Assembly: GCA_023247875.1 (NCBI GenBank)
Contig: JAHFFQ010000174.1
Location: forward strand, 1 to 17,851
Reading direction: 5' to 3'
Length of the DNA stretch: 17,851 nt
Source: Candidatus Omnitrophota bacterium
GTDB lineage: Bacteria > Omnitrophota > Gorgyraeia > Gygaellales > Profunditerraquicolaceae
Positions 1 to 17,598 of this stretch are shown one piece after another (positions within the stretch are counted from its first letter, which is position 1; each line of letters opens with the position of its first letter). The notes below the pieces were generated by a model. The model searched no databases, was not told the DNA's origin, and worked only from the letters and a program-made list of their open reading frames with translations. The position numbers were made by a program, and so were the translations under genes.

Positions 1-1043
1 TGGAAAAAGTATTGAAGTTAAGGGATGTTTGCGAATTTGAAATCTATCAAAAAGAATTTGAGGCGAAATGTGCCTCTTATTTCGGTGTTCCGTTTGCGCT
101 AGGCATGTCTTCAGGGACAGCCGCTCTTTCTCTTTCGCTGGTAGCGCTGGGTATAGGGCCGGCTGATTATGTAATTACCACGCCACATACCTATATCGCA
201 ACTGCCCTGGCAATATCTGATATCGGGGCCACTCCTTTATTTGTAGATGTCAGAGAAGATTCTAATATAGACCCGGCTGAAATAGAAAAGAAAATCTCGC
301 CTAAGGTCAAGGCCATTATTCCTGTCCATCTCTATGGGATACCTTGTTCGATAAGAGAAATTGTCGCATCGGCAAAAATACAAGGGCTTTACGTGGTTGA
401 AGATTGCTGTCAGGCTCTAGGAGCAACTATTGAAGGTAAGAAGGTGGGAACTTTTGGAGATTTCGGATGCTTTAGCTTCCATCCTTCTAAAATAGTCGGC
501 GGCCTGGGGGACGGCGGGATGGCCATTACCTCAGATCCCATAGTGGCGAAAAATATGGAAAGATTACGGGAGGCATTGTACAATGATAAGGAAGTGCTGA
601 AGAGTTTAAAAACCCCTGCTTCATTAGACGTGATCCATATCCCTTTTTTAAAGGTCAAGCTGAGGCACATAAACGAAATAATAGAAAAGAAGAAATTAAT
701 CGCGAATATTTATAATTCAATGATTTCTGGGATCCCGGGAGTCATTTTGCCGCAAATTGAAAACAATTGCACAAGTTCATTCCGTAATTATACGATAAGA
801 GTCCCGGAGAGAGGGCGTCTATTAAAATATTTGTTATCAAAAGGTATTGAAGCAAAGATCTTCTACGATACGCCGTTACATTTAAGAAATGAGTTTGCGC
901 ACCTCGGCTATGAAAAAGGCGATTTTCCTGTTTGCGAGAAAATCTATGAGGAGATAATTTCTTTGCCAATCTCATATGCTTTGGCATCCCAGGACATTGA
1001 GAAAATAGCCGGATTAATAAGAAGATTTTATGACCCCCACTAA
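1..1043 (+). CDS. DegT/DnrJ/EryC1-family sugar aminotransferase (5' partial)
   Basis: PLP-dependent aminotransferase of the DegT/DnrJ/EryC1 (ArnB-like) family, which transfers an amino group to a keto-sugar nucleotide in the cytoplasm. The frame is open to the left edge (first whole codon at 3), so the true start lies upstream; about 20-25 N-terminal residues are probably missing compared with the usual 360-370. Counting from the TTG at 12, the family motifs are SSGTAA (33-38, phosphate/PLP binding), VVEDCCQALGA (128-138, with D131 expected at the pyridine nitrogen) and FSFHPSKIVGGLGDGGM (154-170, with K160 the expected Schiff-base lysine). The catalytic residues are intact. It is separated from the next gene by 32 bp. 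Its place beside glycosyltransferases and a flippase fits amino-sugar supply for a surface glycan. Family assignment is firm; the specific sugar is unknown. Confidence 0.93.
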   Translation, partial: EKVLKLRDVCEFEIYQKEFEAKCASYFGVPFALGMSSGTAALSLSLVALGIGPADYVITTPHTYIATALAISDIGATPLFVDVREDSNIDPAEIEKKISPKVKAIIPVHLYGIPCSIREIVASAKIQGLYVVEDCCQALGATIEGKKVGTFGDFGCFSFHPSKIVGGLGDGGMAITSDPIVAKNMERLREALYNDKEVLKSLKTPASLDVIHIPFLKVKLRHINEIIEKKKLIANIYNSMISGIPGVILPQIENNCTSSFRNYTIRVPERGRLLKYLLSKGIEAKIFYDTPLHLRNEFAHLGYEKGDFPVCEKIYEEIISLPISYALASQDIEKIAGLIRRFYDPH

Positions 1044-1075
1044 CATCATATTGTTAAAGAAAAGGGGAGCGGATC

Positions 1076-2119
1076 TTGGCTAAGGAATGTCTGCAGGATA
1101 AAGAAAAGCTGGCATGCTGTTACCGCAGCTTTTATAAAATGTCGATCATCCCCTCAAGGGACGGTGATGCCGTAGTCGCTACATGCGGGGATAATATGTC
1201 TTATCCGGAGAATAAGGTAATTGTTAAGGAAAATATCAAAGGTGCCTGGAATTCGCCTCAGTTTCGGTTCCAGAGGAAGCTGATATTGAAAAATGACTGG
1301 AGTCCTTGCAAAGGGGCTTGCTGTGTATTTCATCCATTTGGCCTTGAAGATAAATTCTTAGATGATCCTGATGTAAAGTCGGCGATCGCGGGAAAAAAGG
1401 AGGAGCTTGCTTATGCTCCAAAACTCCTGGCGATCATCCCTTCCCATGCCTGTAACTTCGACTGTTATTCCTGTTATCATGTTTTTAAGAAGAACAGCAG
1501 AATAAAATACCGCTTGAAAGATAATTTGCTGAAAGAAATCGAAGAGACCCTGATCCCCTCAGCCGAGAATGTGCTTATCTCCGGAGGGGAGCCATTCTTT
1601 GCGCAAGAATCGCGCGAGTTTATCGACCGGCTGGTCTTAAACCATCCGCATAAGCAAATAGCGATTAATACCAACGGATCGCTTATCCATGAATATGGGC
1701 TGGATAAGATCATAGGAAGTAACCTGCATCTTACGATCACTGTTTACGGCATGGAAGCTAAGACGTATGAGGCGGTAACAAAAAGGAATAACCGTGATAT
1801 TGTCTTTTGCAACATAGAAGAGCTTATCGCGCGCCGCTATAAAAGGATGCAGTTGATTTTTCTGGTAAGCGAAAGATCCTTTAACGATAGCGAGAAATTC
1901 TGCGAATTTATTGCCGGGCATGAGGGCTTAAACGGCATAGTCAGAAACAATTGGTATGAAGGCGCAAAATTCTGGGGATTAATGAATAGATTGGAAGAAA
2001 AATACGCCAGTATCTCTTCCCGGCTTAAGTTCCAGTATCAAAATGTGTCATTGCCGAGGGCTATATACAGAAGGTTTTACAATCCGATACACTCATTGAG
2101 GTATCTACTGCGAAGATAA
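1076..2119 (+). CDS. Radical SAM protein with N-terminal SPASM-like segment, tandem copy 1
   Basis: Predicted radical SAM enzyme, 347 residues; substrate unknown. The TTG start is supported by a good ribosome site (AGGGGAG at 1063-1069, 6 bp spacing) and by an in-frame stop at 1055-1057. Residues 30-85 look like a SPASM auxiliary-cluster segment: C37 followed by DNM, then NIKGAWNSPQF, an RKLIL stretch, and C78/C82/C83. The radical SAM core follows, with CxxxCxxC at C126/C130/C133 and the SAM-contact motif SGGEP (169-173). This order (SPASM-like first, SAM core second) is the reverse of the usual arrangement, and there is no C-terminal SPASM domain. The gene is the left member of a 1116-bp tandem duplication. 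Residues 139-347 are identical to the next gene, whereas 23 substitutions fall in residues 21-138. It could be a maturase or a glycan-modifying enzyme; nothing in the sequence decides. Confidence 0.85.
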   Translation: MAKECLQDKEKLACCYRSFYKMSIIPSRDGDAVVATCGDNMSYPENKVIVKENIKGAWNSPQFRFQRKLILKNDWSPCKGACCVFHPFGLEDKFLDDPDVKSAIAGKKEELAYAPKLLAIIPSHACNFDCYSCYHVFKKNSRIKYRLKDNLLKEIEETLIPSAENVLISGGEPFFAQESREFIDRLVLNHPHKQIAINTNGSLIHEYGLDKIIGSNLHLTITVYGMEAKTYEAVTKRNNRDIVFCNIEELIARRYKRMQLIFLVSERSFNDSEKFCEFIAGHEGLNGIVRNNWYEGAKFWGLMNRLEEKYASISSRLKFQYQNVSLPRAIYRRFYNPIHSLRYLLRR

Positions 2120-2122
2120 TAA

Positions 2123-3235
2123 ATGATGAAAAAAGAAGCCATATCACTTGCCGTTGAAAAAGTAAGGTTTTACCTGCGCGACTGGCGGATCTTGGCTAAG
2201 GAATGCCTGCAGGATAAAGAAAAGCTGGCATGCTGTTACCGCAGCTTTTATAGAATGACGATCACCCCTTCAAGGGACGGTGATGCCATAATTGCGCCAT
2301 GTTGGAATAATATGTTCCATCCGGAGAATAAGGTAATTGTTAAGGAAAATATCAAAGGTGCCTGGAATTCGCCTCAGTTTCGGTTCCAGAGGAAGCTGAT
2401 ATTGAAAAATGACTGGAGTTTTTGCAAGGGGGCCAGTTGTGCGTTTGATTCATTTTTTCGCGAAGATAAATTCTTAGATGATCCTGATGTAAAGTCGGCG
2501 ATCGCGGGAAAAAAGGAGGAGCTTGCTTATGCTCCAAAACTCCTGGCGATCATCCCTTCCCATGCCTGTAACCACGAATGTTTCAGCTGCTTTTATGTTT
2601 TTATGAAGAACAGCAGAATAAAATACCGCTTGAAAGATAATTTGCTGAAAGAAATCGAAGAGACCCTGATCCCCTCAGCCGAGAATGTGCTTATCTCCGG
2701 AGGGGAGCCATTCTTTGCGCAAGAATCGCGCGAGTTTATCGACCGGCTGGTCTTAAACCATCCGCATAAGCAAATAGCGATTAATACCAACGGATCGCTT
2801 ATCCATGAATATGGGCTGGATAAGATCATAGGAAGTAACCTGCATCTTACGATCACTGTTTACGGCATGGAAGCTAAGACGTATGAGGCGGTAACAAAAA
2901 GGAATAACCGTGATATTGTCTTTTGCAACATAGAAGAGCTTATCGCGCGCCGCTATAAAAGGATGCAGTTGATTTTTCTGGTAAGCGAAAGATCCTTTAA
3001 CGATAGCGAGAAATTCTGCGAATTTATTGCCGGGCATGAGGGCTTAAACGGCATAGTCAGAAACAATTGGTATGAAGGCGCAAAATTCTGGGGATTAATG
3101 AATAGATTGGAAGAAAAATACGCCAGTATCTCTTCCCGGCTTAAGTTCCAGTATCAAAATGTGTCATTGCCGAGGGCTATATACAGAAGGTTTTACAATC
3201 CGATACACTCATTGAGGTATCTACTGCGAAGATAA
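2123..3235 (+). CDS. Radical SAM protein with N-terminal SPASM-like segment, tandem copy 2 (chimeric N-terminus)
   Basis: Paralogue of the preceding gene, 370 residues, starting 3 bp after its stop. Residues 1-20 (MMKKEAISLAVEKVRFYLRD) are the same as the first 20 residues of the next gene, and the shared radical SAM protein joins at about residue 22. This makes it a chimera produced by the duplication. The SPASM-like segment has C60 within PCWNNM, closer to the common SPASM CWNNM pattern than copy 1, and C101 and C106; the cysteine equivalent to copy 1 C82 is serine. The SAM core has C149/C153/C156 and SGGEP at 192-196. From residue 162 it is identical to copy 1. Start is the tandem ATG at 2123/2126, with only a weak ribosome site; an internal TTG at 2192 would give the copy 1 N-terminus. 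The two stops TAA TAA precede the next ATG. Function unknown beyond radical SAM chemistry. Confidence 0.83.
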   Translation: MMKKEAISLAVEKVRFYLRDWRILAKECLQDKEKLACCYRSFYRMTITPSRDGDAIIAPCWNNMFHPENKVIVKENIKGAWNSPQFRFQRKLILKNDWSFCKGASCAFDSFFREDKFLDDPDVKSAIAGKKEELAYAPKLLAIIPSHACNHECFSCFYVFMKNSRIKYRLKDNLLKEIEETLIPSAENVLISGGEPFFAQESREFIDRLVLNHPHKQIAINTNGSLIHEYGLDKIIGSNLHLTITVYGMEAKTYEAVTKRNNRDIVFCNIEELIARRYKRMQLIFLVSERSFNDSEKFCEFIAGHEGLNGIVRNNWYEGAKFWGLMNRLEEKYASISSRLKFQYQNVSLPRAIYRRFYNPIHSLRYLLRR

Positions 3236-3238
3236 TAA

Positions 3239-4267
3239 ATGATGAAAAAAGAAGCCATATCACTTGCCGTTGAAAAAGTAAGGTTTTACCTGCGCGATTC
3301 CAAGAACCTTGTTTTGCGTCAATTTGGGCTGTTAAAACTCTCTACGTTAATCTTAGCCTTAACCGATAAATGCAATTTGAAATGTGTTATGTGCGATATT
3401 TGGGAAAAAAAAGGAGAGGAGATCCGAGAATTGGATTTTATTAAGATCCGGCAGCTGCTGGAACTCGGTGGTTTAAAGCAGCTTAAACATATATCCCTGA
3501 CAGGAGGAGAGCCGTTTCTGCGTAAGGATATTTGTGACATAGTTTTGACAATCAAAGGTTTTTATCCCCGATCAAGCATCACCATTTCTTCGAATGGTAC
3601 ATTGACCGGTCAGATAATGGATTTTTTGCGCAGGACACAACAATATACGAATATCAGCATTGAACTTAGTTTGTTGGGCATAAAAACACACGATGACATC
3701 TCGGGGGTAAAGGGATCTTTTGCAAACCTTGAAAATACAATTCATGAAGTACGTAACGGGTTCCCCGCGTTGAATTTGAAGGCGAAATTCGTGATTACCC
3801 CCTGGAACTATCTTACGATTAAAGAGACAGCGGATTATTGCCAGGAGCAAAACATTCCGCTTATGTTCAAGATCGTAGAAAACGTAAGATCTTATACCAA
3901 TTCCCTTAAGTACCGTCAGAATTTAGTAAACAAAAGCCTCATTTTTAATGCTGAACAACTAAAATCGATTATAGATGCGCTTAAGAAACTAAGGAATAGC
4001 CGGACAGTTAACCGGGTCTGCACGGGGCAGCTTATTAACTGTTTAGAAGGTAAGAAAATAAGCAAAAAATGCTTTGTGCCGTTCCTTTCTTTGTTTATTA
4101 ATTCTGAAGGCAGCATTTATCGCTGCCGCATGCATGATCCGATAGGCAGTATTAGTAAAGAGCTTTTTAACTTTATTACCGCGGGAAATCTATTGGCAGA
4201 AAACCGGTTTGATGGTGACAGCCAAATGTGCGGTCAATGCGTTTCTCTCTTACGCTTTTTAATGTGA
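3239..4267 (+). CDS. Radical SAM protein with C-terminal SPASM-like domain
   Basis: Predicted radical SAM enzyme of 342 residues in the common domain order. The core cluster motif is CNLKCVMC (C45/C49/C52), followed by LTGGEPFLRKD with GGEP at 89-92. The C-terminal region has C278, G291 and C296 spaced as in the SPASM motif (C-x12-G-x4-C), then a CxxC pair at C331/C334. The last part of a full SPASM motif (the final two cysteines) is absent, as the protein ends 8 residues later. Its first 20 codons are duplicated at the start of the upstream gene. They fit naturally here, because they lead into a typical rSAM beta strand (TLILALTDKCN), so this gene is probably their original owner. The stop overlaps the start region of the SGNH hydrolase, indicating one operon. 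The substrate is not evident; a sugar- or peptide-modifying role is possible. Confidence 0.88.
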   Translation: MMKKEAISLAVEKVRFYLRDSKNLVLRQFGLLKLSTLILALTDKCNLKCVMCDIWEKKGEEIRELDFIKIRQLLELGGLKQLKHISLTGGEPFLRKDICDIVLTIKGFYPRSSITISSNGTLTGQIMDFLRRTQQYTNISIELSLLGIKTHDDISGVKGSFANLENTIHEVRNGFPALNLKAKFVITPWNYLTIKETADYCQEQNIPLMFKIVENVRSYTNSLKYRQNLVNKSLIFNAEQLKSIIDALKKLRNSRTVNRVCTGQLINCLEGKKISKKCFVPFLSLFINSEGSIYRCRMHDPIGSISKELFNFITAGNLLAENRFDGDSQMCGQCVSLLRFLM

Positions 4268-5269: not shown

Positions 5270-6424
5270 ATGAAACTATCCGTACCTACAAATTGGCAGC
5301 CCGATTTATTGGGCAGAATAAATAAATCTAAGGTTATTGAGATCTATGGAAAATTGGGTTGCGACCCTATAGGCGGAGGCAGGCCATCGTTTACGCTGCC
5401 GTCTATTGATAAGCGCCGGGTTAAGGATTATATCTTGAAGGTGCACCAGAATGGCTTGAAATTTAATTATCTCTTAAATGCCGTATGCCTGGGTAATATT
5501 GAATGGTCAGCTGCCGGGCAGAAAAGGATAAGAGGATTTCTTGACTGGTTAACCACTCTAGATGTCGATGTGGTCACCGTCAGCATACCATATCTGCTTG
5601 AGCTGGTTAAGAAGCGCTATCCTCACTTTGAAACTAAAGTATCGGTATGCGCCGCAGTTTGCGACCCCTTACAGGCAAAATACTGGGAAGATATGGGAGC
5701 GGATACGATTACTCTTTCTCCATGGGCGGTAAACCGCAGTTTTAAAACCTTAAGAGAAATAAGGCAGGCGGTAAAATGCAAATTGCAGGTATACGCGAAT
5801 ACACGTTGCCTATCCGGATGTCCTTCTGTCCAGTACCATTATTCATCACACAGCCATTCTTCAAGGACCAAGGATAGAGCATCCAGCATTAATTACTGCA
5901 GGTTTTCTTGTAACTACCTGATATTCAAAGAACCCTGGAGGCTTATTTCAGCCTGCTGGATCCGCCCGGAAGATTTACCATACTATGAGACAGTGGGAAT
6001 AAATTCAGTTAAATTATCCGACCGGAGCATGGAAACAGAGCAAATCCAGCGCATAGTTGAGGCTTATACAATGGAAAGTTATGGCGGAAACCTTATGGAT
6101 TTATTGTACATAATTTCTGCGAAAAAATTGGCAATCGGGAAGAAACGCAACATCAAGGTACCGCCGCTCAGCAAACTCCTGGACCAAATACCTGTTAATG
6201 ATCCTACCTTCCTGGATAACGGAAAATTAGACGGTTTCCTGAATTTTTTTATTGAAGGCAAGTGCAGCCGTATTAACTGTGACGTGTGCGGATATTGCCG
6301 GGATATCGCGAATAAAGCTTTGTATATTCCTGATGATTATCGTAGCAAATTAATTTCCATCTATGAAGATTTATTTAAAATTATTATCGGCGGAGAGATG
6401 TTTACATGCAGGCAGAAGAACTGA
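5270..6424 (+). CDS. U32-family (PrtC/UbiU-like) Fe-S protein, paralogue 1
   Basis: Member of the family annotated as peptidase U32 (COG0826); 384 residues. Characterised members (UbiU, UbiV, TrhP, RlhA) are Fe-S proteins required for oxygen-independent hydroxylation; the peptidase label is historical and no protease motif is visible. Family-like segments include YANTRCLSGCP (C180, C184), NYCRFSC (C210, C214), CWIRPEDLPYYETVGI (C229 onward) and KLSDR. A further conserved C-terminal quartet is C332-x4-C337-x2-C340-x2-C343, suggesting a second metal site. It is one of three paralogues here; 36 of its first 40 residues match the second. Compared with the others it lacks about 14 residues between 280 and 307, where they carry a YSW..IK..FHP segment. 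ATG starts 1 bp after the upstream stop, and the flippase start overlaps its end by 19 bp. Function in this locus is unknown; a hydroxylase-type role is inferred from the family. Confidence 0.85.
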   Translation: MKLSVPTNWQPDLLGRINKSKVIEIYGKLGCDPIGGGRPSFTLPSIDKRRVKDYILKVHQNGLKFNYLLNAVCLGNIEWSAAGQKRIRGFLDWLTTLDVDVVTVSIPYLLELVKKRYPHFETKVSVCAAVCDPLQAKYWEDMGADTITLSPWAVNRSFKTLREIRQAVKCKLQVYANTRCLSGCPSVQYHYSSHSHSSRTKDRASSINYCRFSCNYLIFKEPWRLISACWIRPEDLPYYETVGINSVKLSDRSMETEQIQRIVEAYTMESYGGNLMDLLYIISAKKLAIGKKRNIKVPPLSKLLDQIPVNDPTFLDNGKLDGFLNFFIEGKCSRINCDVCGYCRDIANKALYIPDDYRSKLISIYEDLFKIIIGGEMFTCRQKN

Positions 6425-7994: not shown

Positions 7995-9371
7995 ATGAAA
8001 CTGATTTTAGCGCCGCTGGTTTTGTGTTTAGGCATATTTATGAATTTTATCCCGGCATTTGCGGAACTAAATTTCAGCGGGGGAGGGGCCTTACGGTTAA
8101 GGCATGAATACTGGAAAAACTTGAAAGACATGAATAGCGGCGTACTGGATAACCGCAATTTCTTTAGGATAAGGACGTCGCTCTGGGGGCAAATGGATTT
8201 AGATAAAAAGGCAAGCTTGTATGTTAAGCTTACGGATGAATTTAAGGCTTATACTTATTTTGGGGGATCGACCTCTTCTGTCCCCGACAAGAGCGCATCA
8301 AAAAAAGGGTATCATTTTGATATCAATGAAGTCGTATTTGATAATTTTTATCTGGATGTAAAAAGAGTTCTTGATTCTCCCGTAGGCCTGCGTATTGGAC
8401 GGCAGGATCTGCCGACTTCCGATTATGGAGAAGGGTTCCTGATCGGCGATGGTACTCCGGTGGACGGGTCAAGGACATATTATTTTAATGCAGCCAAGGC
8501 AAGGTGGCAAATCGATGGCAATACTTCATTAGATGCAATCTTGATAGATGATCCAAGAGACGAAGAATTCCTGCCGGTAATAAACCAGACGAAATTAGTC
8601 AATATAAGTAATCCAACCCTAGATAAGGTTACACAACAACTAAATACCACAGACGAAAAAGCCGGTGTTCTGTATTTTAGGAATAAATCCATTAAGAACC
8701 TTTACACGGAGGGGTACTACATATATAAAACAGAAGCCGCAGAAGGGGGGACGGGGCTGCAATCGCAGCGAACCAGGCTGCATACATTTGGTTCATACTC
8801 TAAGTTTAATCTTTCTCCGTATACCCTCAGAGGCCAGCTTGCCTATCAGACGGGTGACTACGGCGATAACAGCAGAAGAGGCTTGGGTGGGTATGTTTAT
8901 GTAGACAGGGCTTTTAAGAATATACCCTGGTCCCCGCTTGCCAGTTTAGGGTATATTTATCTTTCGGGTGACAAACAAAGCACCAGCGCAAATGAAGCAT
9001 GGGATCCATTATTTTCCAGGTATCCATGGTTATCAGATTTATATTGTCTTACCTTGGCCGGAGAAACCGGTATGACCGGCTACTGGACTAATTTTCAATG
9101 GGAGAGGGCATCGTTAACCCTATATCCGGTAAAGAAAGCTAAATTGTTGCTTTCATATAATTTCTTGAGAGCCAATACGCAGGTGGCAGCCAGCAGTATT
9201 TTTTCCGGAACAAGCAAAACAAGGGGACAGTTGATACAGGGCAAGCTGGATTATGAGATCAGTAAAAATATTACAACATATTTCATGGCCGAATATCTTA
9301 TTCCGGGTAAATTTTACGCGAATCAAGACGCAGCGGTATTTCTTAGAACAGAACTGATGATCAAATTTTAA
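7995..9371 (+). CDS. Alginate-export-like outer-membrane beta-barrel protein
   Basis: Predicted outer-membrane channel of 458 residues related to the alginate-export (AlgE-type) family. The chosen ATG at 7995 has a strong ribosome site (AGGAGG, 7984-7989); an in-frame ATG at 7977 would place that site inside the gene. A clean signal peptide (residues 1-23, ending PAFA) is followed by LNFSGGGALRLRHEYW, a typical first strand. Other family-like segments are RNFFRIRTSLWGQMDL, GLRIGRQDLPTSDYGEGF and the following RTYYFNAAKARW. Alternating hydrophobic residues and many aromatic/glycine turns continue to the C-terminus, which ends with F as expected for barrel assembly. It is not preceded by the periplasmic alginate genes algK/X/L, so the exported polymer need not be alginate. 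Likely cargo is the glycan made by this locus, or it may be a porin for an acidic sugar. Confidence 0.82.
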   Translation: MKLILAPLVLCLGIFMNFIPAFAELNFSGGGALRLRHEYWKNLKDMNSGVLDNRNFFRIRTSLWGQMDLDKKASLYVKLTDEFKAYTYFGGSTSSVPDKSASKKGYHFDINEVVFDNFYLDVKRVLDSPVGLRIGRQDLPTSDYGEGFLIGDGTPVDGSRTYYFNAAKARWQIDGNTSLDAILIDDPRDEEFLPVINQTKLVNISNPTLDKVTQQLNTTDEKAGVLYFRNKSIKNLYTEGYYIYKTEAAEGGTGLQSQRTRLHTFGSYSKFNLSPYTLRGQLAYQTGDYGDNSRRGLGGYVYVDRAFKNIPWSPLASLGYIYLSGDKQSTSANEAWDPLFSRYPWLSDLYCLTLAGETGMTGYWTNFQWERASLTLYPVKKAKLLLSYNFLRANTQVAASSIFSGTSKTRGQLIQGKLDYEISKNITTYFMAEYLIPGKFYANQDAAVFLRTELMIKF

Positions 9372-11093: not shown

Positions 11094-12296
11094 ATGAAAC
11101 TATCCGTGCCTACAAATTGGCAGCCAGATTTATTGGGGAGAATAAATAAATCAAAGGTCGCTGAAATCTATGGAAAATTAGAGAGGGATCCCGTGGGCGG
11201 TGGCCGCCCTTCTTTTATGCTTCCCTACATTAGTAAAACTCAGGCCAAAGAATATATTTCAACTGTGCATAAAGCCGGTCTTAAATTCAATTATCTTTTG
11301 AACGCTTCTTGTCTTGGAAATATTGAGTGGACAGCGCAAGGCCAAAAGAGGATTAGAAAATTCCTTGATTGGTTGACTGCCATAGGCGTTGATGCGGTGA
11401 CGGTAGCCGTTCCATATCTACTTCAGGTAGTCAAGAAGTGTTACCCGCATTTTGCAACAAAGATATCCGTGTGCGCGGGAATATATAATCCTATCCAGGC
11501 TAAATACTGGGAAAGCTTGGGAGCGGATGAAGTATCGCTTTCTCCGTGGTTAGTAAATCGCAACTTTAAGCTTTTAAGGAGAATCCGCGCTGCCGTCAAT
11601 TGCGATTTACAGATTTACGCGAACACCAGATGCTTAATCGGATGCCCGTTTGCAAATTACCATTACTCATCCACCAGCCATTCTTCAACTTCAAGCGGTA
11701 TTAATAACGGATTCTTTATTAACTACTGTATGTATTCCTGCGCTTATCTGGCGTTGTCGGAGCCCTGGAGATTAATAGCTTCATGCTGGATACGCCCGGA
11801 AGATTTACATTATTATAAAGAGGCAGGAATAAATACGGTTAAATTGTCAGAACGTGGCATAAAAACAGAATATATCCAGCGCATAGTTGAGGCGTATACA
11901 GAGGAGGAATATGACGGCAACCTTATGGATTTATTTCTTAGCCCTTCAAAGAGCCTGACGCCCTTCAAGAAGTACTCTTGGAAAAAAATAAAGTTTTTCT
12001 TCCATCCTTTTGGGGTCGACCTCTTTAAGCTGCACCGTTTTCTTACGCGTATACCCGCTGATGATCCTACCCATTTAGATAATAAAAAATTGGACGGATT
12101 TCTTAAGTTCTTTGTCGAAAAAAAATGTCGCCAGGGTAATTGCGACGAGTGTGGATATTGCCGCGACGTTGCCAAGAAAGCTTTATATATACCTGAGGGT
12201 TATAGGAATAAGATGCTGGGGATATATAAAGATTTACTTGAAGAAATCATTGACGGGGGTGTGTTTAAAATCAACAGCAATAAAATGCCTGGATAG
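11094..12296 (+). CDS. U32-family (PrtC/UbiU-like) Fe-S protein, paralogue 2
   Basis: Second U32 paralogue, 400 residues and the most complete of the three. The core cysteines are C180 and C184 (NTRCLIGCP), C212 and C216 (YCMYSC) and C231 (CWIRPEDL); C73 and C127 are also shared with paralogue 1. The C-terminal quartet is C345-x4-C350-x2-C353-x2-C356 (NCDECGYC). A segment around 293-306 (KYSWKKIKFFFHPF) is present here and in paralogue 3 but not in paralogue 1. The first 22 codons differ from paralogue 1 almost only at silent positions, so the pair is under strong protein-level constraint. It starts 45 bp after the GT2 gene with AAGGAAA upstream, and is followed 19 bp later by the GT39-like gene. 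The peptidase name is unlikely to reflect its activity; oxygen-independent hydroxylation is the family-based inference. Confidence 0.86.
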   Translation: MKLSVPTNWQPDLLGRINKSKVAEIYGKLERDPVGGGRPSFMLPYISKTQAKEYISTVHKAGLKFNYLLNASCLGNIEWTAQGQKRIRKFLDWLTAIGVDAVTVAVPYLLQVVKKCYPHFATKISVCAGIYNPIQAKYWESLGADEVSLSPWLVNRNFKLLRRIRAAVNCDLQIYANTRCLIGCPFANYHYSSTSHSSTSSGINNGFFINYCMYSCAYLALSEPWRLIASCWIRPEDLHYYKEAGINTVKLSERGIKTEYIQRIVEAYTEEEYDGNLMDLFLSPSKSLTPFKKYSWKKIKFFFHPFGVDLFKLHRFLTRIPADDPTHLDNKKLDGFLKFFVEKKCRQGNCDECGYCRDVAKKALYIPEGYRNKMLGIYKDLLEEIIDGGVFKINSNKMPG

Positions 12297-15009: not shown

Positions 15010-16411
15010 ACAAGAAGTAACTTTAATTTGCGCAAGCGAGGATTCCTCAAAAAAACGGTCGTCGTTATTAAGGACGCTACGAGAAAGGACCTGTCCGCCT
15101 CTCGGCCTGCTCTATTTGGCGGCTGTTTTGGAAAAGGAGAAAATAAAGGTAGGGATAATCGATTTGGCCCGGTTAAAAGGGGGTATCCGGCAGGCAATAC
15201 AGGCAATACGCTCTTCAAACCCGAGCGTTATTGGAATATATGTTACTTCTTTTGAGCTCTCCTTAGTCAAAAGATTGATATCCGAAATCAGGAATAATTT
15301 AAAAGGGTCAAGAATTGTTATCGGGGGCCCGCATGTAAATTACTGCCCGGATTCGGTAGTCTATCTTAACGCTGATTTTGGAATTATTTCAGATGGAGAG
15401 TATGGGCTGTTAGGTTTGGTTAAAGAGTTGCTGAATAACGGCAGCAATTTTATGGATATCCCAAATCTTATAACCCGGTCAGGCAATGGCATAAGGGTAA
15501 ACGGCCTGAAAATGATCGAAGATCTAGACAGCCTGCCTTTTCCCGCCCGGCATCTTTGGCCTTACCGATTTTATTCGCCTTTGATCGCCGGTAAAATTAC
15601 TTCGGCGGTAACTTCAAGGGGCTGTGTTTTTCAATGCAGCTTTTGCGGGGTGCCCAATAAAGGGACATTAAGAGCCAGAAGCGTTGCCAGCGTAATAGAA
15701 GAGTTTGGTTATCTTCAGAAACAGGGATTTAATTACGTTGAACTTCTTGATGATACCTTTACTTATGATAGAAACAGGGTAAAATTGTTTTGTGAAACAT
15801 TAATTGAAAAAAGGAATGATTTAAAGTGGACCTGTTTAACCCGGATCGATTGCGTAGATAAAGAATTGTTGCGTTTGATGAATTTGGCGAAATGCACTCA
15901 CATTAAATACGGGATAGAAACCGGTTCAGAATTCATCAGGAATAAAATCATGAAAAAGCCCATCGCAAATGTCCAGATCGAAAATGTCATTAGGGAGACA
16001 AAAGGTGCGGGTATTTTTGCCGAGGGTTGTTTTATGCTGGCAGAGCGTGAAGAATCTTTAAAAGATATTAGATTTACCGTGGAATTCATAAAAAAGTTGA
16101 AGTTGGATTATATTGATTTTCACTTAACATGGTTAGTACCCGGTTCAGAGATTTTAAAGAAAGCGCTAACTGAGCAAAGAATTACTTCTGATGTGTGGGA
16201 GAAGGTCGCTGATGGAAAGCAGGTGCCTTTTTCTACCCCCGACACCGTAACATTGCCTGAAATAATCGCCCTAAGAAAGAAGATCATGAGAGATTTTTAT
16301 TTTAACCCGGTTTTTTTGTTTAAAGAGATTTTTACAAGGACAAAGGATTTCCCTTCAGCGATAAATAAAATAATGATTTTGTTAAATGTTTTAAATTTGC
16401 ATAGAAGATGA
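14999..16411 (+). CDS. B12-binding-type radical SAM protein (BchE/class B methylase-like)
   Basis: Predicted radical SAM enzyme of 470 residues with an N-terminal cobalamin-binding-like Rossmann domain. The N-terminus has TCPPLGLLYLAAVLEKEKI (31-49), then IIDL, IGIYVTSFE and IVIGGPHVNYCP (106-117), the usual signature of B12-binding radical SAM proteins. The classic DxHxxG motif is not present (DLARLKGG at this place), as in several relatives that bind cobalamin base-off/His-off. DLDSLPFPARHLWP (176-188) links to the core SRGCVFQCSFC with C209/C213/C216, followed by a typical ELLDDTFTYDR strand and YGIETGSE. Characterised relatives methylate unreactive carbons or form rings. It overlaps the upstream SPASM gene by 11 bp and the downstream U32 gene by ATGA, so the three are probably made together. 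Substrate unknown. Confidence 0.9.
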   Translation: MYSKQEVTLICASEDSSKKRSSLLRTLRERTCPPLGLLYLAAVLEKEKIKVGIIDLARLKGGIRQAIQAIRSSNPSVIGIYVTSFELSLVKRLISEIRNNLKGSRIVIGGPHVNYCPDSVVYLNADFGIISDGEYGLLGLVKELLNNGSNFMDIPNLITRSGNGIRVNGLKMIEDLDSLPFPARHLWPYRFYSPLIAGKITSAVTSRGCVFQCSFCGVPNKGTLRARSVASVIEEFGYLQKQGFNYVELLDDTFTYDRNRVKLFCETLIEKRNDLKWTCLTRIDCVDKELLRLMNLAKCTHIKYGIETGSEFIRNKIMKKPIANVQIENVIRETKGAGIFAEGCFMLAEREESLKDIRFTVEFIKKLKLDYIDFHLTWLVPGSEILKKALTEQRITSDVWEKVADGKQVPFSTPDTVTLPEIIALRKKIMRDFYFNPVFLFKEIFTRTKDFPSAINKIMILLNVLNLHRR

Positions 16412-17598
16412 AGTTATCCGTGCCTACAAATTGGGAAGAGGGCCTTCTCCCGCAGCTGAATAAGAAAAATATTGCCGTAATCTACGGGAAGCTGGACAAA
16501 GATTTCGTCGGAGCTGGCCGGCCAAGCTCTATATTGGCGAGAATCACGAAAAGAGAAACCGGCAGGCAAATATCCGGTATCCACAAGAACGGTATAAAAT
16601 TTGATTATTTATTGAACTCTCCGTGTTTAAACAATCTGGAATGGACTGCCTTTGGGCAAAAAGAAATCAGAAGATTGCTGGATTGGCTGGTTACCATAGG
16701 GACAGATAGCGTTACAGTAAGCATGCCATATTTGCTTCAGATGATAAAAAAATGCTATTCTGGCATCGAAGTAAATATTTCAGTCGGTGCGGGTATTGCT
16801 TCTTTGGCTAAAGCAAAATACTGGGAAGACTTGGGAGCGAACCAGCTTACCCTTCTTCCCACGGAGGCCAATAGGGATTTCCAGCTTTTAAGCAATATCC
16901 GCAAGGCCGTTAACTGCCGCCTGCAATTAATTGCTAATTTACCCTGCCTGCATGAATGCCCATTTTATGCGTACCATATTGCTTCCCTCGGACATGCTTC
17001 GCAAACCGAACATATTAATAAAGGCTTTTTTGTTGATTATTATCCTTTATTGTGCAAATACCATAAATTATCCGCACCATGGAGGATGGTTGCTGCATCC
17101 TGGATCAGGCCGGAAGATTTACGCTATTATGAAGAAATAGGAATAGACAGGATAAAGCTTGTTGACAGGGGCTGGAAAACAGAATATATCCTTCGTGCGG
17201 TAGAGGCATATACTAATGAAAGATATGATGGCAACCTGTTAGATTTGTTTTCCGACACGGGGAAATATCAGGCATTCGCAAAAAGGTATTCTTGGGGGAG
17301 GATTAAATATTTATTTCATCCCATGAAATACAATATGTTTCTTTTCCACCGTCGGGTAAGCCCCATGATTTTCAATGACCCGTCATTCCTGGATAACCGA
17401 AAAATGGGTGGTTTTATTAAATTCTTTATGGACGGTAAATGCAAATCCGCTAACTGCAGTGAATGTAATTATTGCCGCGGCATTGCCGAAGAAGCATTCA
17501 ATGTGCCAAATGATTACAGAGAAAAGATGTTAAGTTTATGCGGGAGGTTATTGAATGATATTATTGACGGAACTGTATTTTATTGTGATAAGAAATGA
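16408..17598 (+). CDS. U32-family Fe-S protein, paralogue 3 (altered core cysteines)
   Basis: Third U32 paralogue, 396 residues, with the same MKLSVPTNW start and the same domain layout as the other two. It retains C73, C180 and C184 (LPCLHECP), C216 and the C-terminal quartet C345-x4-C350-x2-C353-x2-C356. However, positions that are cysteine in both sister proteins have changed: C127 is G, C212 is Y (DYYPLLC) and the cysteine before WIRPEDL is S231. The central cluster may therefore be lost, changed or coordinated differently, while the C-terminal site is kept. It starts at ATG 16408 in an ATGA overlap with the B12-type radical SAM gene and ends in an ATGA overlap with the sulfatase-like gene. 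No frameshift or stop is seen, so it is not an obvious pseudogene. A divergent or partner-type role, as UbiU pairs with UbiV, is an inference. Confidence 0.84.
   Translation: MKLSVPTNWEEGLLPQLNKKNIAVIYGKLDKDFVGAGRPSSILARITKRETGRQISGIHKNGIKFDYLLNSPCLNNLEWTAFGQKEIRRLLDWLVTIGTDSVTVSMPYLLQMIKKCYSGIEVNISVGAGIASLAKAKYWEDLGANQLTLLPTEANRDFQLLSNIRKAVNCRLQLIANLPCLHECPFYAYHIASLGHASQTEHINKGFFVDYYPLLCKYHKLSAPWRMVAASWIRPEDLRYYEEIGIDRIKLVDRGWKTEYILRAVEAYTNERYDGNLLDLFSDTGKYQAFAKRYSWGRIKYLFHPMKYNMFLFHRRVSPMIFNDPSFLDNRKMGGFIKFFMDGKCKSANCSECNYCRGIAEEAFNVPNDYREKMLSLCGRLLNDIIDGTVFYCDKK

Follow-up and report, generated by a model that had tools for sequence, protein, structure and literature searches.

The window analyzed here is the entire 17,851-nucleotide (nt) contig C71 (JAHFFQ010000174.1) of a Candidatus Omnitrophota genome, and its main feature is a tandem pair of radical SAM genes, copy 1 and copy 2, which are identical over most of their length and differ in three short patches. 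On balance, and with some reserve, we believe that this is an old gene pair homogenized by gene conversion everywhere except at patches that set the specificity of each enzyme.

In this picture, a region of four cysteines (C15, C37, C78 and C83) precedes the radical SAM barrel (C126, C130 and C133) and probably binds one auxiliary iron-sulfur cluster, in the manner of a twitch domain. Recombination between the copies, either by gene conversion or by unequal crossing-over, would keep nearly the whole gene identical. The three patches beside the cluster ligands would stay different, presumably because each copy needs its own version. Two sets of residues are apparent, a copy-1 type (I25, G38 and D39, then D129, H135 and K138) and a copy-2 type (T25, W38 and N39, then E129, Y135 and M138), and both appear to recur in related lineages, as seen in patches 1 and 3 but not in patch 2. 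By analogy with BtrN and other twitch enzymes, the two copies would probably oxidize a sugar-like compound positioned between their two clusters. The neighboring DegT aminotransferase may then aminate the oxidized product for a surface polysaccharide, and the substrate, or the position acted on, would differ between the copies.

Three patches of difference in a tandem gene pair

The two units of the duplication lie at an offset of 1116 nt (Table 1). Of the 1041 coding bases shared by the copies, 42 differ, and these are located at codon 5 and in the three patches. Of the 31 codons affected, 23 encode a different amino acid in the two copies (residues 21-138) and eight are silent (codons 5-133), a recount that agrees with the 23 changes and roughly eight silent codons of the original prediction, which was made from the same DNA. 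Position-by-position comparison also reproduced its identical runs of 693, 111 and 101 nt and its placement of the patches at C37, C78-C83 and C126-C133, and S132 is indeed encoded by TCC in the first copy and by AGC in the second. C82 is present in copy 1 and missing from copy 2. The 693-nt block continues beyond the stop codon and includes a duplicated start of gene 3, the next radical SAM gene, so that copy 2 opens with the first 20 residues of gene 3; copy 2 is longer than copy 1 by 23 residues. Copy 1 begins with a TTG codon, and a ribosome-binding-like AAGGGGAG can be discerned by eye just 5' of it.

Table 1. Features of the window that bear on the tandem pair
Feature	Position	Strand	Basis and remarks
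DegT/DnrJ/EryC1/StrS aminotransferase	12..1043	+	PF01041, 291 bits; directly upstream of copy 1; 5' end lost at contig start
Duplicated unit, first copy	1069..2181	+	Position-by-position comparison, repeat search; offset 1116
Copy 1, radical SAM enzyme, 347 residues	1076..2119	+	Open reading frame; PF04055, 43.6 bits; no leader
Patch 1, copy 1	1136..1204	+	Codons 21-43 around C37; 10 amino-acid changes
Block with likeness to C110 paralog	1246..1314	+	Between patches 1 and 2, into start of patch 2; likely ectopic exchange
Patch 2, copy 1	1304..1345	+	Codons 77-90 around C78 and C83; 7 amino-acid changes
Patch 3, copy 1	1457..1489	+	Codons 128-138, in and after CX3CX2C radical SAM motif; 6 amino-acid changes
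693-nt identical block	1489..2181 = 2605-3297	+	Remaining barrel, stop codon, 3 nt, first 59 nt of gene 3
Copy 2, radical SAM enzyme, 370 residues	2123..3235	+	Open reading frame; PF04055, 40.8 bits; 23-residue N-terminal extension
Copy 2 leader, 59 nt	2123..2181	+	Identical to gene 3 start (3239-3297)
Duplicated unit, second copy	2185..3297	+	Position-by-position comparison; offset 1116
Patch 1, copy 2	2252..2320	+	Offset 1116
Patch 2, copy 2	2420..2461	+	Offset 1116
Patch 3, copy 2	2573..2605	+	Offset 1116
Gene 3, radical SAM enzyme with C-terminal SPASM domain	3239..4267	+	PF04055, 57.5 bits; PF13186, 24.7 bits

The clustering of the differences is not due to chance. When 42 differences were placed randomly in 20,000 trials, the longest clean run was 261 nt, versus 628 coding nt observed, and none of the 20,000 placements gave two gaps of at least 101 nt within the first 413 nt. 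The silent differences are clustered as well, with seven of the eight purely silent codons inside patches that make up 48 of the 347 codons (p 7e-6). Nei-Gojobori counts on copy 1 versus copy 2 gave a synonymous divergence (dS) of 0.74 in the patches, 0.019 in the other codons of 1-138 and 0 in codons 139-347, which contain no change at all. Because silent differences cluster too, and selection at the protein level does not keep silent sites different, the borders of the patches can be taken as borders of exchange.

The 23 amino-acid changes adjoin iron-sulfur ligands, which could suggest active diversification of the enzymes, driven either by positively selected point mutations or by a diversity-generating mutagenic system. 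The original prediction listed this among its possible causes and implied an excess of amino-acid change (23 versus eight). After sites are counted the excess is gone: the nonsynonymous divergence (dN) in the patches is 0.29 and dN/dS is 0.39, and the Fisher test (p 0.018) points in the opposite direction, toward fewer amino-acid changes per site. Positive selection in the patches finds no support in this ratio. Adenine mutagenesis, as by a diversity-generating retroelement, is not supported either, since the changes are mixed (26 transitions and 16 transversions) and show no adenine-directed pattern, A being found at 7 of the 42 differing positions in copy 1 and at 8 of 42 in copy 2. Active diversification is left unsupported by a patch dN/dS below 1, and we consider it very improbable. 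In the family alignment, the patch columns overall are no faster than the rest, with a mean entropy of 1.35 bits versus 1.33 and 1.37 elsewhere.

Relatives with the same leader fusion and residue types

Evidence on the age of the pair comes from protein P0004 (72% identical), which starts with the leader of copy 2, joined at the identical junction (YLRDW). The duplication looks older than the split between the window and P0004, since both carry the same leader fusion, and one old duplication appears to be the simplest reading of these sequences. The leader itself looks native to gene 3. A matching stretch (NLRDSKNLFL) is found in the gene-3 relative behind another tandem pair, that of locus L089, and the gene-3 relative on contig C22 of the same genome as the window can be aligned to the leader by eye. 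When the last 191 residues of copy 2 were used to look for a truncated copy upstream of P0004, the only proteins found were P0011 and P0013.

The layout of the window pair has a partial counterpart in P0004 and P0027, an N-terminal fragment without leader. Between these two proteins, 51 of the 138 residues through the end of patch 3 differ, the following 44 contain a single difference, and beyond residue 141 the two are identical. Over the same 44 residues, copy 2 differs from P0004 at 10 positions and copy 1 from P0027 at 10, and a tree of residues 139-182 joins P0027 and P0004 as sisters (support 100/98). Unlike that of the window copies, the divergence between P0027 and P0004 also falls outside the patches.

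The patches themselves group the sequences in another way. In the quartet of copy 1, copy 2, P0027 and P0004, 21 sites sort by lineage (20 of them outside the patches), six by type and none crosswise; the fair comparison is six versus zero, because type sites are by definition confined to positions at which the copies differ. The six type sites (25, 38, 39, 129, 135 and 138) belong to patches 1 and 3. Among 33 rows, three of which lack the first three sites, the combination IGDDHK is found only in copy 1 and P0027, and TWNEYM only in copy 2, P0003 and P0004. Other states are TWNDYM in P0005, TGDDHK in P0009, TGDDQT in P0006, and TWN followed by DHK in P0002. The last protein is a mosaic, with the copy-2 state at 10 of 10 differing sites in patch 1 and the copy-1 state at 6 of 6 in patch 3.

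Further quartets of the two copies gave ten type sites and one cross site with P0027/P0003, nine and one with P0027/P0005, eight and none with P0009/P0003, seven and none with P0009/P0005, five and one with P0009/P0004, and one and none with P0009/P0006. The quartet of copy 1, P0002, P0027 and P0004 was a tie, four type versus four cross. A signed type score over the 23 residues reached +18 for P0027/P0003 (sign-flip p 0.009) and +15 for P0009/P0003 (p 0.007). In trees of the patch columns (14 rows, 48 columns), the approximately unbiased (AU) test rejected a clade of copy 1 and copy 2 (p 0.021) and did not reject one of copy 1 and P0027 (p 0.45).

Several results weigh against an old, homogenized pair with specificity-setting patches. 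The type signal is carried by patches 1 and 3, and patch 2 shows none: its share of the score is -1 for P0027/P0004, +2 for P0027/P0003, 0 for P0009/P0003, -3 for P0009/P0004 and -1 for P0009/P0006. The six type sites were picked after looking, and the signed scores for P0027/P0004 (+10, p 0.11), P0009/P0004 (+7, p 0.29) and P0009/P0006 (+3, p 0.53) are lower. The quartet of P0027, P0004, P0009 and P0006 ties at four versus four. P0027 and P0004 come from different sources and may be neither neighbors nor members of one genome. P0002 has a copy-2-type patch 1 and no leader, and so patch type is not strictly bound to gene position. In the AU test, P0027 with P0004 (p 0.19) and copy 1 with copy 2 and P0002 (p 0.24) were also not rejected, and 8 of the 11 inner branches of the patch-column tree are open. 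The 23 differing columns are faster than average (1.65 bits), and the N-terminal part of the protein, modelled alone, found no confident match in the PDB (predicted local distance difference test score, pLDDT, 75). Finally, P0006 and P0009 differ throughout, at 20 of 44 and 57 of 165 residues after patch 3, and their lineage thus shows no sign of homogenization. Divergence spread evenly along homologs had been named in the original prediction as a result that would speak against it; P0006 and P0009 do differ all along, and P0027 and P0004 do not.

A different history, which we regard as possible and less likely, is a recent tandem duplication followed by the import, through homologous recombination with a related strain or species, of three short stretches into one or both copies. 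The two codons for S132 and the clustered silent changes do point to a diverged sequence, the P0002 mosaic argues that patches move between backgrounds, and the lack of an old type signal in patch 2 and of homogenization in P0006 and P0009 also favors an import. However, the identical leader fusion of P0004 makes the duplication old, and three separate short imports would be needed that left the 101- and 111-nt flanks unchanged. Furthermore, in patches 1 and 3 the copies share their residue types with P0027 and P0004/P0003, and no patch donor was found in the assembled genome. This last point was addressed with a DNA query of positions 1130-1500, in a search of the genome for donors of the kind that the original prediction envisaged. 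In the assembled 90% it found none, the matches being both copies, a block on contig C110 and seven short ones (E 0.07-0.83). The assembly totals 1.38 Mb in 177 contigs and is 90% complete, and thus an unassembled donor is possible.

Among the three causes first proposed, gene conversion with selection keeping the patch differences is therefore the best supported, on account of the silent clustering, the P0004 fusion, the P0027/P0004 layout and the six type sites. Recombination with a donor gains from the P0002 mosaic, which would allow for an outside source, and loses from the missing donor in the assembled genome.

A more prosaic explanation is an assembly artefact, in which two strains or repeat copies were merged and the phasing of the patches or the copy number is wrong. 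A 693-nt exact repeat is hard for short reads to resolve, this assembly is split in many contigs, and the copy number could exceed two. Nonetheless, the junction of leader and copy 2 is also present in the separately assembled P0004, the divergent-then-identical layout recurs in P0027/P0004, and patches that keep the reading frame at a dN/dS of 0.39 are unlike read errors. We consider such an artefact quite improbable.

Exchange with a paralog has apparently left a trace within the pair. The genome contains two further paralogs, on C22 (60%; in the order aminotransferase, family gene, gene 3) and on C110 (51%). A 69-nt block of the window has 90% DNA identity to positions 8946-9014 of the C110 locus (L088), versus 60% overall. 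The best segment of copy 2 versus C110 is residues 58-78, with 92% identity versus 60% overall (0 of 5000 permutations), and that of copy 1 has 89% (p 0.0006); the C22 paralog has no outstanding segment with either copy (p 0.44 and 0.40). Judging from the sequences, the C110 block is a likely ectopic gene-conversion tract. Paralog exchange is therefore visible mainly in the homogenized part of the genes. C22 (L087) and C110 also carry parallel sets of genes for an ATP-grasp protein, an ABC ATPase, a substrate-binding protein, a glycosyltransferase and a family radical SAM enzyme, matched partly by eye. The genome therefore has several similar clusters that may exchange DNA.

A bolder possibility, offered tentatively and rated as unlikely, is that the two enzyme types have persisted together across lineage splits as an obligate pair, acting in two successive steps or as a heterodimer. 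About two dozen residues near the cysteines of the auxiliary cluster and of the radical SAM motif would suffice to define each type, the patches would be swapped as modules, and P0002 would be a natural chimera. If true, this would provide a ready-made map of specificity determinants in a radical SAM family with an N-terminal cluster.

Cysteines, likely chemistry and parallels in other genes

Both copies contain the CX3CX2C motif and match PF04055 with 43.6 and 40.8 bits (cut-off 29.5), which places them in the radical SAM superfamily. The likely cluster ligands are C15, C37, C78 and C83, which never vary in alignment A4, and C126/C130/C133, which are conserved in all 33 rows of alignment A3. 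Alignment A4 has 31 rows, including two fragments of the copies, and omits four start-truncated proteins. The best NCBIfam match for both copies is NF033640 (N_Twi_rSAM), with scores of 44.1 and 42.9 bits that are below the curated cut-off of 170; 30 of the 33 members of A3 match it at E 0.001 or better. Of its 398 profile positions, 5-220 are matched by copy 2 and 34-220 by copy 1, a span that takes in the radical SAM motif and some of the N-terminal cysteine region, whereas the second part of the profile is unmatched by either copy. The four cysteines ahead of the barrel would be able to bind one auxiliary cluster, as expected of the NF033640 subfamily, and probably do so. PF13186 (SPASM) has no match at E 0.001 in either copy and none at E 10 in four N-terminal fragments of the family. 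The predicted structure of the whole protein (pLDDT 86) has listed matches mainly over the barrel, and no SPASM or twitch chains are among the matches listed for the N-terminal part alone.

Among sequence-profile matches in the PDB, 7wzv (SpeY) ranks first, and BtrN (4m7t, 4m7s) is also listed. According to PMC9012708, BtrN removes two electrons from an aminocyclitol, and four cysteines hold its auxiliary cluster. The same paper describes twitch domains as C-terminal extensions, in contrast to the N-terminal cysteines here. The profile match of the copies to BtrN and SpeY differs further in covering the start of the barrel only. The BtrN step is followed by an aminotransferase. Given the profile similarity and the DegT neighbor, the most likely chemistry by analogy would be radical dehydrogenation and then DegT transamination.

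Islands of divergence under gene conversion have precedents. In the human red/green opsins, adjacent duplicates are alike except where their function differs, and a small divergent region, exon 5, stands out; the parts of PMC3924837 that deal with these genes and with the theory (Innan; Teshima and Innan) attribute such peaks, which survive gene conversion, to selection maintaining two functions. A divergence peak under gene conversion, mosaics included, is likewise described for GOT1p1 and GOT1p2 of the copepod Tigriopus californicus in PMC3728101, a eukaryotic case that involves a putative aspartate transaminase. The window differs from the opsins in having a bacterial radical SAM pair with three islands, each beside likely cluster ligands. 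The island cases covered in these two papers are animal and yeast genes (PMC3924837, PMC3728101). The literature search found no paper on this radical SAM family and no bacterial radical SAM pair carrying three such islands next to cluster ligands. Gene conversion has reportedly been observed in one pair of bacterial genes (PMC1762029). The process, divergence islands under gene conversion, is already known, and this case is new; it would be an example of such islands in a bacterial metalloenzyme.

To our knowledge, the way in which radical SAM enzymes with auxiliary clusters choose their substrates is mostly unknown. Apart from the leader of copy 2, the pair is identical outside three patches near likely cluster ligands and amounts to a near-ideal natural swap experiment. 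As the copies are otherwise identical, any difference in product or redox behavior would stem from about 23 residues. The arrangement suggests that the patches decide what each enzyme does.

Distribution of the family and neighboring genes

Searches of 5.8 billion protein sequences matched 26 proteins when the full gene was the query, 25 for its N-terminal half and 2 for its C-terminal half, for a total of 29 distinct protein ids in which copy 1 itself (P0001) is counted. The named close homologs (P0025, P0027 and L039) are all from Candidatus Omnitrophota. Radical SAM matches at E 0.001 were obtained for 82 of 145 relatives, and none other than the genome itself exceeded 55 bits among the matches listed. 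At E 1e-30, with the same genome counted, the family was found in 1 of 108 genomes of the taxonomic family, 1 of 128 of the order, 3 of 384 of the class and 3 of 384 of the phylum, and in two smaller genome sets in 1 of 12 and 1 of 42; there is overlap among the sets, and all positives together represent three genomes. Of 44 matching loci in genome contigs only L039 reached 47%. Viral sequences contained one weak locus, and plasmids two weak records.

The family is therefore rare, and seemingly often multi-copy. On a marine Omnitrophota contig (L089:6551-9735), a tandem family pair is followed by a gene-3 relative, and the order copy, copy, gene 3 thus recurs in a distant genome. The L089 copies are 47% identical to each other and not homogenized. 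L089 and L039, both of length 45,101, were taken as one contig. Equally long longest contigs were also seen for P0003, P0008 and P0022 (92,159) and for P0006, P0009 and P0019 (24,952).

A similar aminotransferase gene is also located upstream of the 60% paralog on C22, and a gene-3-type gene lies 3' of that paralog and of the L089 tandem pair. Further genes of the window code for a flippase, an alginate-export protein, a family 2 glycosyltransferase, a PMT_2-type transferase and U32-like proteins. The gene surroundings of the pair are those of surface polysaccharide synthesis. The U32-peptidase-like genes are three dispersed paralogs, each starting with MKLSVPTNW (5270-6424, 11094-12296 and 16408-17598), and the first two have 71-72% DNA identity across stretches of 247-300 nt.

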